The notes under the pieces were generated by a model that saw only the letters and a program-made list of their open reading frames with translations, was not told the origin of the DNA and ran no database searches. Source: a virus. From it: a DNA stretch of 27,917 bases. Shown piece by piece: positions 9,349-27,901 of the stretch (its first letter is position 1; every line of letters begins with the position of its first letter). The stretch covers positions 1-27,917 of the IMG/VR virus record IMGVR_UViG_3300006925_000106, one strand, 5' to 3'. The translations under genes were made by a program, and so were the position numbers.

Positions 9349-11268
9349 TTATGTCAAGTCTACTATTTCACACACGTCACCAGAGCAAGCCATAGTTTGC
9401 ATTGCTACAGTGTTATCGTCTTTCTCGTACTCAGACAGCCCAGCCCAATTAATCTTCTTGGGCATAACAGATAGTAACATATCATAGTCACTCTTGCCAA
9501 CCTCTTGATACGGTGCTTGCTGATATGTGTGTTCATTGTATGGTAAAAATGACACACCTGACATCTCATCAAAATGTTTGTACACGAATGCACCCACCTC
9601 AAACCATTCATCCTTACGTACATTACAAGTAATGCTTGGCTTGTGCTCACACCAATGGCGTTGATACATGAGCCATGTCTCTAGCTGTTGAATGGCTGAC
9701 AGATCAGACGTTACAATAGCCTTACGAGGTGACTTAACAGGGAAGCTGAACACTGTAGTGGCATCAGGCTTCATAACGTCTGGCTCATTAGGTATACCTT
9801 GATCCTTCATAAACTGTGTCAAGGGGTCTTTATCATCACCACGCACAGTACGGATATAATAGGGACTATGGCGAGGGTGTATGCCAGAGGCACTATCCAC
9901 CAGTTGCGAGACTGTTCCTGACGGCTTGACGCAGCTAATAGCAGTAGCAACAGGTATACCAAGACGGTCAGCCCATTCAGCATTAGTAGATACAGCAATC
10001 CCACGTAGATGTTCAAGGGTCTTATCCAATCCTTTGTTTGCGGTAGTCATCAAGGGGTTGTCCATTATCCCTGTGAGAGACACACCGAGCAATCGTTCCT
10101 CTTCTGTATTTCGTTGCCACACCTTTCGCAGATATGGGAACTTTGTGTACGTGCTTTGGATCGTCCCAAGTATTGTGGCGAGTCTGACTTTTCTAGCCAA
10201 GTCTTCCAACGAATCTGTGGCACGTACCACAACTTCCGTAAGGTTACAGAACTGATATGGACGCAGAATAATTTCACTGCATGGGTTAGTTCCAAACTCC
10301 CAATCAGGGTCACGTCTACCATACTTTGCAGCTTGTTTCTTACTTGCCTCACGATTGAATATACCACGTTCACCACTCCCACTTTCTACTAATGACATCC
10401 ATTCACGCATGAAGGATACTGCATCTGGTTTCTCTGTATAACTAACACTGTTATTAGCTAATGCACGTTGTGGTTCATTCTCCCACCACTGTCCTGACTT
10501 AGCATGACGCATACGGTCATCACTCAGGTTACTCAATGAAATCATAGCTGACCTACGTACACCACCAACTACGACTACCTCACCAATCTTGCACATGATG
10601 TCGTGACATTCAATGCTAGATAGCCTACGTCCTTGTGCATCTTTAAATACCCGTACCACAAAGTTAAACAAATCCACCAGAGGTGCAGGTCCACTTGCCC
10701 TACCACCAAATGTTTTTAGTCTAGCCCCTGCAGGACGTACACGTGAAACATCCCACTGTGGTATCTCACCTGCCCAAAGAAGAGCCATCACTTGTCTGAG
10801 AGATTTAGCCCAACCTTCTTTGCTATCCTTCACAACGACTGTGGTATCACTGTCGAACAACTCAGGGACTTCGGGCAGCTTACTAATGAACTGCCTCTCA
10901 ACACTGAAGCCAACACCAGTACCACACAAGAGGATGAACATAGCCTCATCGAAGGACTTAGGGTCATCTATGGGTAAGTAGCTACAGTTGTACATGCAGG
11001 TGTTATCCCTGTCTGCTGCTGGACCTGCTGTCATCATGGATCGCATGGATGGCATAACCTGTAGGTCAAGTATTGCATCTGAGATTTCTACTGCTACACC
11101 ATTTTGAGGTGGGTCAGAACGGTCTAAGACTGTATCGACAACGTTGGTCATATAACGTCCTATAGTTTCAGCCCAATTCTCCCTGCGTCCTACATCGTCA
11201 AGCCATCGTGCATAACGTGACTTGTGTATGAAGGATTGATAGTCAGTAGATAGGTAGTTCTGTATCAT
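9349..11268 (-). CDS. nrdJ: Class II (adenosylcobalamin-dependent) ribonucleotide reductase, monomeric type
   Basis: 639 aa. It reduces ribonucleotides to deoxyribonucleotides by a thiyl radical generated with coenzyme B12. The active site can be read: redox cysteine C95 (MYNCSYLPI), the NPCSE motif with radical C330 and E332 (FGTNPCSEIIL), partner C341 (QFCNLTEVV), and the C-terminal thiol shuttle C628/C633 (ACSGDVCE, CxxxxC). SCVKPSGTVSQL is also typical. The layout matches the monomeric Lactobacillus leichmannii-type RTPR (739 aa), but this version is about 100 aa shorter. AGGAG precedes the start. Dependence on B12 means the host must make or import cobalamin. Such genes are common in marine podoviruses. 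Confidence 0.96.
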   Translation of the reverse strand: MIQNYLSTDYQSFIHKSRYARWLDDVGRRENWAETIGRYMTNVVDTVLDRSDPPQNGVAVEISDAILDLQVMPSMRSMMTAGPAADRDNTCMYNCSYLPIDDPKSFDEAMFILLCGTGVGFSVERQFISKLPEVPELFDSDTTVVVKDSKEGWAKSLRQVMALLWAGEIPQWDVSRVRPAGARLKTFGGRASGPAPLVDLFNFVVRVFKDAQGRRLSSIECHDIMCKIGEVVVVGGVRRSAMISLSNLSDDRMRHAKSGQWWENEPQRALANNSVSYTEKPDAVSFMREWMSLVESGSGERGIFNREASKKQAAKYGRRDPDWEFGTNPCSEIILRPYQFCNLTEVVVRATDSLEDLARKVRLATILGTIQSTYTKFPYLRKVWQRNTEEERLLGVSLTGIMDNPLMTTANKGLDKTLEHLRGIAVSTNAEWADRLGIPVATAISCVKPSGTVSQLVDSASGIHPRHSPYYIRTVRGDDKDPLTQFMKDQGIPNEPDVMKPDATTVFSFPVKSPRKAIVTSDLSAIQQLETWLMYQRHWCEHKPSITCNVRKDEWFEVGAFVYKHFDEMSGVSFLPYNEHTYQQAPYQEVGKSDYDMLLSVMPKKINWAGLSEYEKDDNTVAMQTMACSGDVCEIVDLT

Positions 11269-23890: not shown

Positions 23891-23904
23891 GTCCAACATT
23901 GGAC
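23891..23904. promoter_or_regulatory. Palindrome copy 1 (candidate operator)
   Basis: GTCCAACATTGGAC followed by GTTT, 19 nt before the ATG of the 118-aa gene. The arms are 6 bp around a 2-nt centre. In the - strand RNA it could also fold as a 5-bp stem with loop AUGU. It lies 2 nt beyond the stop of the upstream gene. Confidence 0.7.
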
Positions 23905-25025: not shown

Positions 25026-25364
25026 TTATCCTTGTGCTGCAATTTGGTTGTCAACATCATCTAGCCACGTGACCAGTACCTTACGAGTACGCATTAACTC
25101 CGCACGTTCCATGTTGTACTTGCCCTTAATCAGGCCAAGGGTTTTCAACACGTTTACACGATAGGCGATACGGCTAGGGTACTCATTGAGTGCCACTGCA
25201 ATTTCCTTAACGGTCATTGTGTCATACAAATCTACCAGTACCTCATCAATAGCAACGTAGTTGTATGTGTACTTACGTGCTTTCTGCATGTGGAAAGTAT
25301 GGTTCTCATACAGTGTAGGGTTAGATGTTTTTACTACTGGTGCATATGTGTTTGAATTTGTCAT
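25026..25364 (-). CDS. Helix-turn-helix-like protein, candidate regulator
   Basis: 112 aa; TAGGAG lies before the ATG. Residues ~44-85 look like a helix-turn-helix with a following wing: DLYDTMTVKEIAVALNEYP, then SRIAYRVNVLKTLGLIKGK. TVKEIAxAL and xVxxRVxxLKxxGLI are typical of winged-helix transcription factors. The N-terminus has many aromatic residues, and the C-terminus is helical. It lies inside the region that carries the repeated palindrome, so it is the best local candidate to bind it, though no binding evidence exists. Confidence 0.6.
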   Translation of the reverse strand: MTNSNTYAPVVKTSNPTLYENHTFHMQKARKYTYNYVAIDEVLVDLYDTMTVKEIAVALNEYPSRIAYRVNVLKTLGLIKGKYNMERAELMRTRKVLVTWLDDVDNQIAAQG

Positions 25365-25375
25365 TGTGTTAGCTC

Positions 25376-25519
25376 CTATGCTACTGATTTACGAAGGTTA
25401 AGTTTACTTTGACGTGCGATCTTACGTTCACGTTTCCAATCGTCACGTTTAGGTTTTTGTCCAACATTGGACGTTTTCTTTTTGCTCATCTTAATGAAGT
25501 TGCGCATCTCGTATTGCAT
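25376..25519 (-). CDS. Small basic protein with a palindrome inside its coding sequence
   Basis: 47 aa, MQYEMRNFIKMSKKKTSNVG to LNLRKSVA, very rich in Lys/Arg. AAAGGA lies 8 nt before this ATG; the later in-frame ATG at 25489 has none. It overlaps the upstream 52-aa gene by 29 nt in another frame. Codons for TSNVGQ coincide with the 14-bp palindrome at 25459-25472. A small basic nucleic-acid-binding protein is possible. Confidence 0.55.
   Translation of the reverse strand: MQYEMRNFIKMSKKKTSNVGQKPKRDDWKRERKIARQSKLNLRKSVA
25459..25472. promoter_or_regulatory. Palindrome copy 2 (within coding sequence)
   Basis: GTCCAACATTGGAC followed by GTTTT, identical in core to the leader copies, but inside the 47-aa gene and about 94 nt before the next start codon. 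Its place suggests a DNA-level site such as a roadblock or secondary operator, or fortuitous conservation. Confidence 0.6.
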
Positions 25520-25649
25520 TACGTTTGTCCTTTCCACGATTGCGTTTGGCTTTACTACCTTTCTTAGGCAGTATCACCTGTGGCGATTTACGTTCCTGTA
25601 ACATTGCTTTTGCCACAGGGTTGCGATATGTTACAGTTTTCTGTTTCAT
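25491..25649 (-). CDS. Small basic protein, possibly ArfA-like
   Basis: 52 aa. The first residues are MKQKTVTYRNPVAKAMLQ, followed by PQVILPKKGSKAKRNRGKD. It starts in an ATGA overlap with the upstream gene. The order NPxAKAxx...V..KKGxxxxRxxxxKR loosely resembles ArfA, the bacterial ribosome rescue factor (N-terminal helix, then a Lys/Gly/Arg-rich tail entering the mRNA channel). That match was made by eye and is weak; a generic nucleic-acid-binding peptide is an alternative. Confidence 0.55.
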   Translation of the reverse strand: MKQKTVTYRNPVAKAMLQERKSPQVILPKKGSKAKRNRGKDKRNAIRDAQLH

Positions 25650-26332
25650 CCGTTTGCTACCTTATCTGCTTTACGTTTGCTTGATCCATGTGCAGGGAAA
25701 CCAATGATTGCATTACGGTTTCTAGCACATAACTTGCATGTCTCACAAGACACATCATCTTTGATTACGGCAGGGCATACTACTACCTTACGTCCCTTCG
25801 GGGTAGTGGTGTTGGTCAACTGATCGGCAGGAAGCACCGTTGTCACAGGTGCAATGTCCATGTCATACAAGGCATCAGCATGTGCCAATGTATTGCCAGA
25901 CAGATTGACCACAAATCCCTTATCGTTCATACGTTTGACAACACTAGCATTATGCTTGCTAGTCAATACGGGATAGTGTGTATATGTCCAACCGTTTTTG
26001 CCAGTGTTAGCATCGGCAAGTTCATCATTGGCATCAGCATCAAGCTCATTGCCATCACCTGCCAAATCACCTGCCTGATTGTGCCGCCATAGTGTGCCGT
26101 CTTTCATGTTGTCAACAGTGTGGATCAACTCTTGCCAACCACCACCACGTTCACCACGTGTGACCTTTGCCCAGTGCATAGCTAGTGGGCCACCGTTTGC
26201 ATAGCATCCACCTTCGTTTGCATTGTTGAATGGGCAAGTACTAGGGCAAGTGTCAGCACTTGTAGTGGTTACTGGTATCTTACCAACCTTGCGGTTGTTT
26301 GATTTCATTGTGATGTGAACATTGTAAGACAT
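25646..26332 (-). CDS. Cysteine-rich conserved phage protein (Gp88/DUF7227-like)
   Basis: 228 aa; ACGGAG lies before the ATG, and a palindrome copy lies 19 nt before it. The N-terminal part has KVGKIPVTTTSADTCPSTCP, GCYANGGPLAMHW and LWRHNQAGDL; the C-terminal part has VVVCPAVIKD, SCETCKLCARNR and IGFPAHGSSK. This arrangement is typical of the phage Gp88/DUF7227 type. Clustered Cys (two in CPSTC, one in GCYA, and CETCKLC) suggest a metal or Fe-S site. The function is unknown. Confidence 0.7.
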   Translation of the reverse strand: MSYNVHITMKSNNRKVGKIPVTTTSADTCPSTCPFNNANEGGCYANGGPLAMHWAKVTRGERGGGWQELIHTVDNMKDGTLWRHNQAGDLAGDGNELDADANDELADANTGKNGWTYTHYPVLTSKHNASVVKRMNDKGFVVNLSGNTLAHADALYDMDIAPVTTVLPADQLTNTTTPKGRKVVVCPAVIKDDVSCETCKLCARNRNAIIGFPAHGSSKRKADKVANG

Positions 26333-26351
26333 TGTTTTACTCCGTAAGATT

Positions 26352-26365
26352 GTCCAACATTGGAC
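26352..26365. promoter_or_regulatory. Palindrome copy 3
   Basis: GTCCAACATTGGAC, 19 nt before the ATG of the Cys-rich gene and 17 bp downstream of the predicted -10 box at 26383-26388. The predicted transcript would begin at about 26376, which puts the site near +12 to +25. Confidence 0.75.
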
Positions 26366-26382
26366 GTTTCGATTTGGTAGTT

Positions 26383-26412
26383 AGTATACGTATACGTTAT
26401 ATATACTTTCAC
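26383..26412 (-). promoter_or_regulatory. Predicted promoter P1 within hairpin 1
   Basis: On the - strand, GTGAAA (26407-26412) is followed after 18 nt by TATACT (26383-26388). The -35 matches TTGACA at four of six positions and the -10 matches at five of six. It would drive the Cys-rich gene and those after it. The -35 box overlaps the hairpin's conserved loop and one stem arm. Confidence 0.5.
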
Positions 26413-26440
26413 TAAAGTATCAAGTATATATAACTTATAC
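26390..26440. repeat. Hairpin 1: 13-bp perfect inverted repeat with conserved loop
   Basis: GTTATATATACTT (26396-26408) and AAGTATATATAAC (26422-26434) flank the 13-nt loop TCACTAAAGTATC. The stem extends outward by five more pairs after one mismatch (26390-26394 with 26436-26440). The loop is identical to that of hairpin 2 at 27183-27195. It lies between the stop at 26440 and the palindrome. Confidence 0.85.
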
Positions 26441-26664
26441 TATACATAATGGTGGCTGTAAGTTTCATCCAAATCCTCAAATGCAGCATCCCATTCGTCG
26501 GGTGTGATGCCTGTCATAATGAACTCACGTTCATCAGCAGTAAGGTTGGGCATAGCATTCTGAATTAAAGTACCATTAGCCCATGCATCTAATTGTGCAA
26601 TTGTAACGTCAATGCTCATAGTGTGAGTATTGCCAGTGAGTTGAGATGTTTTTACGATTCTCAT
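26440..26664 (-). CDS. Small conserved-type phage protein
   Basis: 74 aa. Features are RIVKTSQLTGNTHTMSIDVT, QLDAWANGTLIQNAMPNLTA, then EREFIMTGITPDEWDAAF and an acidic His/Tyr-rich end. Similar small proteins (TGxxHTM...QLxxWxxGxLIQxAxPxL...REFxMTGITPxEWDxxF) are frequent in phages and have no assigned function. ACGGAG precedes the start, with the palindrome 20 nt upstream. Confidence 0.72.
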   Translation of the reverse strand: MRIVKTSQLTGNTHTMSIDVTIAQLDAWANGTLIQNAMPNLTADEREFIMTGITPDEWDAAFEDLDETYSHHYV

Positions 26665-26666
26665 AA

Positions 26667-26702
26667 TTAAACTCCGTTTATATTGTCCAACATTGGACGT
26701 TT
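26667..26702. promoter_or_regulatory. 36-bp leader repeat with palindrome copy 4
   Basis: This 36-bp stretch is identical to 27106-27141. It contains the - strand ribosome binding site ACGGAG and the palindrome GTCCAACATTGGAC (26685-26698), 20 nt before the start codon at 26664. A stop codon precedes the palindrome in the gene's frame, confirming that it is untranslated here. Confidence 0.8.
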
Positions 26703-26707
26703 AAGTT

Positions 26708-26813
26708 AGCAGGTAAAAGTACACTTGGGTTGTAGACGGGATGGCCTATCTTCACACCATTGATTATGTATAGTGAAAGTTAAATATAACTTCCAAGTGT
26801 ACTTATATCTGCT
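26708..26813. repeat. Long intergenic inverted repeat (21-bp arms)
   Basis: Arms at 26708-26728 and 26793-26813 pair at 19 of 21 positions (core AAGTACACTTGG with CCAAGTGTACTT). The 64-nt interior holds a second small hairpin (AAGTTA, AATA, TAACTT; 26777-26792) and TAGTGAAAGT (26771-26780), the reverse complement of a 10-mer shared by hairpins 1 and 2. It starts right after the stop of the 96-aa gene. A weak promoter match (TTGGAA, 18 nt, TATACA on the - strand) lies within it. Confidence 0.8.
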
Positions 26814-27103
26814 TAAACCCATTCGGCATGGATGTTGTCCTGTTCAAGCCACCGCATTGCAGTGTCAATGTCAGGCGCACCTGCTGCCATACAAGCATTG
26901 ATGGATGCATCTTCATCGGCACGTTCCTGTGCCAAGTCCTCTGCTACCCAATCGTAGTAACGTTGGGTTTGCTTTTCGAGTTCAGCAATGTTGTCTACGT
27001 CAATGCTATGACCATTACTATATGGTCTAACACCATGATACTCTTTGTGAGCATCACTATATGCTTGGTAAGCAATGGCATATTCTGTGAGGCGATTGTC
27101 CAT
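26813..27103 (-). CDS. Small acidic phage protein
   Basis: 96 aa, starting at MDNRLTEYAIAYQAYSDAHK. I chose 27103 because ACGGAGT precedes it, in a 36-bp leader identical to that of the 74-aa gene; the longer frame from 27166 would translate the promoter -10 box and the palindrome. The middle is helical (IAELEKQTQRYYDWVAEDL), with an end (DIDTAMRWLEQDNIHAEWV) seen in many small phage proteins. Function unknown. Confidence 0.7.
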   Translation of the reverse strand: MDNRLTEYAIAYQAYSDAHKEYHGVRPYSNGHSIDVDNIAELEKQTQRYYDWVAEDLAQERADEDASINACMAAGAPDIDTAMRWLEQDNIHAEWV

Positions 27104-27105
27104 AT

Positions 27106-27141
27106 TTAAACTCCGTTTATATTGTCCAACATTGGACGTTT
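27106..27141. promoter_or_regulatory. 36-bp leader repeat with palindrome copy 5
   Basis: Second exact copy of the 26667-26702 leader. The palindrome GTCCAACATTGGAC is at 27124-27137, 20 nt before the start codon at 27103 and 20 bp after the predicted -10 box (27158-27163). Confidence 0.8.
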
Positions 27142-27154
27142 TCAGTTTCGGTTT

Positions 27155-27220
27155 AGTATTATACATATGTTATATAACACTTTCACTAAAGTATCAAGTG
27201 TTATATAACTATGTAATACT
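27155..27220. repeat. Hairpin 2: 14-bp perfect inverted repeat, same loop as hairpin 1
   Basis: GTTATATAACACTT (27169-27182) and AAGTGTTATATAAC (27196-27209) flank TCACTAAAGTATC (27183-27195), the loop found in hairpin 1. The arms continue with ACATA/TATGT and AGTATT/AATACT, separated by bulges of 1 and 2 nt on one side, for about 25 pairs. Stem bases differ from hairpin 1 on both arms in a compensating way. Confidence 0.85.
27158..27186 (-). promoter_or_regulatory. Predicted promoter P2 within hairpin 2
   Basis: On the - strand, GTGAAA (27181-27186) is followed after 17 nt by a perfect TATAAT (27158-27163). The predicted start is near 27151, placing the palindrome at about +14 to +27. The layout is the same as in P1. 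Confidence 0.6.
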
Positions 27221-27226
27221 ATATAG

Positions 27227-27397
27227 TCAAGTGCCATAAAAAACCAACAAGGCAACCATCATTATGTATGGCACGACAACCATAAGGGCAACGGGATGCA
27301 GCATTGAGCCAAGCACAATGACGCAAATGCTAGTGACCAATGCCGTAGCACATAGCATAGCTATGGCAATGATTACTACAATGATACGATCAGCCAT
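27227..27397 (-). CDS. Two-helix small membrane protein
   Basis: 56 aa starting at MADRIIVVIIAI, overlapping the upstream stop by 8 nt. Two membrane segments are visible, residues ~4-29 (RIIVVIIAIAMLCATALVTS) and ~36-54 (VALMVVVPYIMMVALLVFY), with a short turn. A five-codon longer form from 27412 is possible. Size and topology would suit a holin or a membrane-acting early protein, but it is far from the SleB gene. Function not proven. Confidence 0.6.
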   Translation of the reverse strand: MADRIIVVIIAIAMLCATALVTSICVIVLGSMLHPVALMVVVPYIMMVALLVFYGT

Positions 27398-27674: not shown

Positions 27675-27901
27675 TCAACATCTTTCCATCCACTATCGTG
27701 GATTAATGTAGGTGCGATCCTATACATATCTTCGGGCGACCTAGTGTTTGCAATTAAATTGTCCAACGTTGGACTTTCCATCTCCTGCGCAAGGGCATGT
27801 GCAAATTGCTTTTCAGCAACATCAAGCACGTGCTGCTCTACACTTGCCTTTGTGTGCGGCAGCAAGTACCGCACACTTGTGTGATCTTTAGTGCGACCCA
27901 T
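27671..27901 (-). CDS. Small hypothetical protein with internal perfect palindrome
   Basis: 76 aa, MGRTKDHTSVRYLLPHTKAS to HDSGWKDVE. The start overlaps the stop of the partial upstream gene (TAATG). The codons for SPTLD overlap a perfect palindrome, GTCCAACGTTGGAC. Helical middle (VEQHVLDVAEKQFAHALAQ). No family recognised. Confidence 0.6.
   Translation of the reverse strand: MGRTKDHTSVRYLLPHTKASVEQHVLDVAEKQFAHALAQEMESPTLDNLIANTRSPEDMYRIAPTLIHDSGWKDVE
27761..27774. promoter_or_regulatory. Palindrome copy 6, perfect version, within coding sequence
   Basis: GTCCAACGTTGGAC is fully self-complementary over 14 bp, the only copy without a central mismatch. It lies inside the 76-aa gene, 86 nt before the next start codon. 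The flanking GTTT of the other copies is missing (CTTTCC instead). Confidence 0.55.

Follow-up and report, generated by a model that had tools for sequence, protein, structure and literature searches.

A family of hairpins with a conserved loop recurs between the early genes of marine phages, and the two arms of its stems change almost entirely by Watson–Crick double changes. Here we describe the structure, covariation, strand, position and copy number of these hairpins, two of which lie in a stretch of 27,917 nucleotides of viral DNA (IMG/VR record IMGVR_UViG_3300006925_000106, called the window in the following). We give close to an even chance to the interpretation that the early polycistronic mRNA carries these hairpins as cis-acting elements in several copies, which work like the RNase III sites of phage T7.

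Two hairpins in the early region of the window

The window belongs to an HMO-2011-type marine phage. Over the replication genes its DNA is 76% identical to CRP-345, 74% to CRP-1 and 69% to HMO-2011. From about 8.25 kb rightwards to its end, the window encodes its genes, the early ones among them, on the minus strand. Hairpin 1 is situated between the 74-aa gene and the DUF7227 gene, hairpin 2 between a 61-aa gene and the 98-aa gene (Table 1). As both hairpins are flanked by minus-strand genes, their functional strand is probably the reverse complement, with the loop GATACTTTAGTGA.

An earlier note on this DNA had described two large hairpins with an identical 13-nt loop and with stems that differ yet pair perfectly. 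A stem search found both of them in the same place, with perfect stems of 13 bp (hairpin 1) and 14 bp (hairpin 2). The loop TCACTAAAGTATC is the same in both, and the block in common comprises 21 nt. No other perfect stem of 10 bp or longer (loop 3–22 nt) exists in the window; when the whole window was dinucleotide-shuffled 60 times, 0.62 such stems appeared on average and a 13-bp stem never. Folded as single strands, the hairpins were better than 200 out of 200 dinucleotide shuffles on either strand (z −4.3 to −6.2). The pairing continues beyond the inner stems as an imperfect outer helix. The arms of the two hairpins (AAGTATATATAAC versus AAGTGTTATATAAC) differ by one compensated substitution and one paired insertion, and the two window copies alone are therefore thin evidence for covariation.

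Table 1. Hairpins and neighbouring features in the window
Feature	Position	Strand	Remarks
Hairpin 1 with outer helix	26384–26445	−	Inner hairpin 26396–26434: stem 26396–26408/26422–26434, loop 26409–26421, sense GATACTTTAGTGA
Hairpin 2 with outer helix	27154–27221	−	Inner hairpin 27169–27209: stem 27169–27182/27196–27209, loop 27183–27195, sense GATACTTTAGTGA
DUF7227 gene, 228 aa	25646–26332	−	Directly downstream (sense) of hairpin 1
74-aa gene, phrog_20898 (unknown)	26440–26664	−	Directly upstream (sense) of hairpin 1
98-aa gene	26813–27109	−	Downstream (sense) of hairpin 2; without family match
TTGACT, putative −35-like hexamer	27225–27230	−	Upstream (sense) of hairpin 2; consensus match only
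Small dyad GTCCAATGTTGGAC	26352–26365	−	Between hairpin 1 and DUF7227 gene start
Small dyad GTCCAATGTTGGAC	27124–27137	−	Between hairpin 2 and next start codon
Small dyad GTCCAATGTTGGAC	26685–26698	−	Downstream (sense) of third inverted repeat
Third, larger inverted repeat	26708–26813	−	Next intergenic gap; 21-nt arms, 64-nt loop

The third inverted repeat has an inner arm end (ACACTT/AAGTGT) similar to that of the hairpin family and a dissimilar loop. This loop contains a hairpin of its own, AAGTTATATTTAACTT, and a close relative of the whole repeat is present in the contig locus L177 (5484–5571).

A small dyad, GTCCAATGTTGGAC, is usually found between a hairpin and the ribosome-binding site. 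Further copies in the window are located at 23891–23904 and 25459–25472, with a variant at 27761–27774. Within a genome the copies are mostly identical, whereas other phages have GTCCGATGTCGGAC, GTCCGACAGCGGAC or GTCCTACCTAGGAC, so that the dyad covaries between genomes. It is possibly an operator for a phage-specific regulator. The 112-aa protein encoded at 25026–25364, which gives weak matches to phage HTH regulators (phrog_323, phrog_3855), is a possible candidate for the regulator of this GTCC dyad. Two small, very basic proteins are encoded at 25376–25537 and 25491–25649.

A hairpin family in two phage lineages

Relatives were found with a DUF7227 protein search and two DNA patterns, followed by a scan for GA...GA loops with paired flanks. 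The resulting family comprises 168 unique hairpins, 114 of them non-redundant, from two phage lineages sharing little else; these counts come from partly overlapping contig loci and the events are not independent. In each hairpin a small mismatch or bulge separates the outer helix (about 8 bp) from an inner helix of 11–14 bp, whose middle varies and which is closed by a loop of the form GA-N-YGA. The stems contain 18–24 pairs (median 20), with the mismatch or bulge zone around position 12–15.

Loops ending in YGA with Y=T (T-family) were found in the window, CRP-345, CRP-1, HMO-2011 and many contigs. The C-family loops are mostly GAGTATCTTACGA, which is the loop of 48 of the 168 unique hairpins, a number partly inflated because the pattern search used that sequence. 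The DNA polymerases of the C-family genomes match that of the window weakly (29–35% identity over part of the sequence, with no match in one of seven contigs), in contrast to those of the tested T-family contigs, which are 65–77% identical to it; the C-family genomes thus represent another lineage. The only proteins common to the window and the C-family loci compared are DUF7227, ThyX and a cell-wall hydrolase.

Among the isolates, HMO-2011 and CRP-345 have perfect stems and CRP-1 has a bulged stem; no perfect stem of this kind was detected in CRP-2, CRP-207 and CRP-603, of which 50 kb each were scanned. The exact C-family core did not occur in the GTDB species genomes, and a BLAST search of phage isolates with a 30-nt C-family stretch gave chance-level matches only. 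Near position 10986 of the locus L093 (minus strand), a loop GAGTATTACGA contains AGTATTAC, which resembles the loop where circular single-stranded DNA viruses are nicked. This likeness, which bears on a role at the DNA level, is probably due to chance.

Covariation and base pairing

The earlier note had proposed that pairing, and not only sequence, is kept, and had suggested a covariation analysis in related phages. In 38 diverged C-family sequences the covariation score was 0.625, compared with 0.198 for shuffled and at most 0.213 for slid partners. In the same sequences 186 cells were changed on both sides versus 57.5, and 16 of the 19 pairs showed a change on both sides. The proposal is borne out: the pairing is preserved while the stems change. 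A change of one arm only with the gene order kept, named in the note as the opposite outcome, can be looked for in the orthologous hairpins located 3' of the DUF7227 gene. Of these 15 hairpins, 14 have an outer helix in which all 8 bp are formed (the helix was not found in the fifteenth, in L021); among the 14 helices two covarying pairs were switched on both sides and no pair was half changed.

As the members were chosen by pairing, the paired fraction is inflated, and the controls together with a loop-anchored count weigh most. In this count, which used a filter of 5 of 8 Watson–Crick pairs, paired flanks were present at 68 of 69 occurrences of four loops, with zero G–T pairs in the nine positions counted. 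The 114 non-redundant members contain 2301 Watson–Crick, 28 G–T and 16 A–C pairs; within the inner helix there are 2 G–U versus 1116 Watson–Crick pairs. At stem positions 10–14, 17 G–T and no A–C pairs were counted on the sense strand.

The loop interior, that is the part inside the flanking GA and GA, pairs as well. On the sense strand it forms 2.59 bp on average versus 1.09 (maximum 1.45) in 200 shuffles, the commonest ends being GT..AC and AC..GT. In RNA folds the tandem G-A residues face one another, topped by a short helix.

Placement and promoter-like sites

Of 265 copies, 222 lie between genes as judged from crude ORF calls. By the same calls, the inner stem starts a median of 11 nt past the upstream stop and ends a median of 32 nt before the next start, and in 139 of these 222 cases both neighbours are encoded on the same strand. 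Copies on both strands of one locus were found at 0 loci. The whole C-family contigs (39–57 kb) have 5–11 matches each among those listed, a number in which weak echoes of these sites on the reverse strand are also counted; the matches are mostly clustered in a few kb and the strong ones are on one strand. In annotated arrays, hairpins and small genes alternate at the start of the early operon.

The hexamer TTGAC[AT] is present 22–60 nt before the loop at 40 of 76 first, 13 of 76 second, 2 of 35 third and 1 of 34 later copies (overlapping loci, not independent), which amounts to 3 of 69 for the third or later copies. With this hexamer mainly at the first and second copies, most copies look internal to a transcript. 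For the longer sequence CTTGACA, 21 occurrences were counted within 80 nt upstream of the hairpins versus 2 within 120 nt downstream, and the −35-like sites are at a fairly constant distance from the hairpin. Over the window as a whole, promoter-like sites are not in excess (8 versus 6.7 ± 2.6).

Proposed role in the early mRNA

If the hairpins work as suggested above, the early operon would be transcribed by the host RNA polymerase, and the hairpins would fold in the leader or in the gaps separating cistrons, immediately downstream of a stop codon and ahead of the ribosome-binding site that follows. With about 20 bp and a mismatch or bulge separating the outer from the inner helix, the stem would resemble the substrates of RNase III in T7 early mRNA. 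The RNase III cut, or the presence of the hairpin alone, would then keep the early cistrons apart and shield them. The conservation of the GA...YGA loop, with its tandem G-A mismatches and a mini-helix of 2–3 bp, implies a further loop-recognising factor, which could be of host or phage origin. We infer from the features of the family all three steps, namely the reading of the hairpin as RNA, the cut by RNase III and the binding of the loop.

Four points speak against this model. A conserved loop is more than cutting by RNase III alone would require. G–U pairs are nearly absent from the inner helix, which is unusual for a structure selected only as RNA and leaves room for a role at the DNA level. 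Where TTGACA precedes the loop by about 42 nt, transcription is predicted to start within the left arm of the hairpin, so that the RNA of that promoter would hold the inner part only. Lastly, perfect stems were absent from the scanned parts of the HMO-2011-type phages CRP-2, CRP-207 and CRP-603. With more reserve, we can imagine a broader picture: an undescribed phage RNA control element common to two or more marine lineages that are otherwise distinct. A single factor recognising the loop may in this case act on many early cistrons through strictly paired hairpins, the stems of which diversify within a genome.

Alternative explanations

The coat protein of MS2 and the translational repressors of T4 bind RNA operators, and the hairpins could likewise be bound by a phage RNA-binding protein that tunes several early genes together at translation, without RNase III cutting. 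A conserved loop on a variable but paired stem is the pattern of a loop-recognised operator, and the copies precede ribosome-binding sites. In addition, the presence of hairpins in a DUF7227 locus goes along with a higher frequency of the two small basic genes (15 of 27 loci with hairpins versus 3 of 53 without, and 13 of 27 versus 2 of 53). They were not detected in the C-family lineage, however, so that this enrichment may be only phylogeny, and the long, strictly paired stems go beyond the needs of known operators; we regard an operator of this kind as unlikely. Similarly doubtful is an element acting at the DNA level, either as a hairpin or cruciform of the sense-strand DNA or as an inverted repeat read by a DNA-binding or strand-nicking protein, for instance in early promoter control, in recombination between early-gene modules or in replication. 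Covariation restricted to Watson–Crick pairs would be expected from DNA pairing, the −35-like sites keep a fairly constant distance to the hairpin, and the inverted repeat folds as single-stranded DNA on both strands. On the other hand, a sequence-specific duplex operator does not explain that the middle of the stem differs among copies of one genome, the −35-like site is mostly restricted to the first one or two copies, and G–T but not A–C is tolerated at positions 10–14. A tyrosine-recombinase site, with inverted arms around a spacer, was rejected, as the spacer varies in length and sequence among the copies of one genome.

The small genes with hairpins between them and the promoter-like hexamer at many first hairpins would fit a PeSL-like cassette, a module of promoter and stem–loop, described for T4-type phages, that allows early genes to be exchanged from phage to phage. 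This is improbable given that most later copies are without a −35-like site, that a terminator U-tract is absent and that the gene order around several copies is conserved. The missing U-tract (on average 2.5 T in the 10 nt after the hairpin, with six or more in 2 of 114 cases) also agrees with the earlier note, which had held that the hairpins are not standard terminators. Intrinsic termination between early genes is suggested by the position right after stop codons, but the stems are AT-rich in the lineage of the window and a terminator scan of the window picked neither hairpin, although its loop limit of 8 nt would exclude both anyway; we consider such terminators highly improbable. A sigma-70 promoter inside the hairpin (TTGATA-N17-TATAAC) was discarded as it fits some stems only. 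Promoters for a phage polymerase, finally, are largely refuted and receive next to no weight from us. For a T3/T7-type promoter read from the loop strand TCACTAAAG one could cite CACTAAAG, which resembles the T3 promoter core, but the TCACTAAAG core is not conserved across the family, and a PF00940 search that finds the T7 RNA polymerase (E 1e-109) found nothing in six HMO-2011-type isolates or 14 contigs. For an N4-type virion-polymerase hairpin there is a motif-B-like RxxxKx7YG in the 1240-aa virion protein, the largest protein of the window and the only one covered by this test; the motif showed no conservation across six relatives, and the family matched by the protein is one of internal virion proteins.

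Novelty and significance

At the curated score of Rfam the family hairpins had no match, and the window region 26300–27300 had none even at E 1. The words hairpin, promoter and intergenic are absent from the HMO-2011-type genome paper, and a limited literature search gave nothing linking HMO-2011 with a stem–loop. The hairpin family, uncatalogued and recurring between early genes of many marine phages, suggests a shared early-gene control element. To our knowledge, early-gene control in HMO-2011-type phages has not been worked out. These phages are reported to be a dominant and broadly distributed marine viral group (PMC9038755). An element marking early cistrons in two lineages offers a concrete handle, testable in the cultured phages CRP-1, CRP-345 and HMO-2011. 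The family is also a possible addition to RNA family libraries and a marker of early regions in environmental contigs. The almost exclusive Watson–Crick covariation is unusual in itself and makes the question of RNA or DNA directly testable.

Comparison with known systems

The PeSL elements of T4-type phages consist of an early promoter and a stem–loop (PMC4503421). Like these, the hairpins are stem–loops separating small early genes, and a promoter-like site accompanies some of them; unlike these elements, they have a conserved tandem G-A loop, no terminator tail and, at most copies, no promoter-like site (an early promoter at each stem–loop is contradicted by the counts for first and third-or-later copies given above), and the phage of the window is not T4-type. 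The N4 virion RNA polymerase promoters also combine a conserved loop with a variable Watson–Crick stem and occur in several copies within an early region, but stem and loop are much longer here. Neither a virion RNA polymerase with conserved motifs (largest window protein tested) nor, in the six isolates and 14 contigs searched and with T7 as positive control for the isolates, a single-subunit RNA polymerase of the T7/T3 kind was found. With the operators of MS2-type RNA phages the hairpins share a conserved loop and a bulge, a stem free to vary as long as it is paired and a location near the ribosome-binding site; they differ in their many copies per genome and longer stem, and the binding protein is putative here.

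In T7, RNase III cuts the early mRNA at five sites (PMC4858673). The model site R1.1, situated between genes 1.0 and 1.1, forms a hairpin whose internal loop is asymmetric; it can be cleaved by an alphaproteobacterial RNase III (PMC6121014). Our computed fold of the R1.1 region was not clearly comparable with the family hairpins and is not counted as evidence; a fold of the locus L274 (3000–3060, plus strand), computed for the wrong strand, was likewise left aside. The sequences are unrelated, and the present family has a conserved loop, almost no G–U pairs, in some cases more copies, and a presumed cleavage. Both systems nevertheless have several intercistronic hairpins on the gene strand of an early region transcribed by the host (here according to crude ORF calls and with presumed transcription), and in both a stem of about two turns, with a median of 20 pairs in the present family, is interrupted by an internal loop or mismatch.
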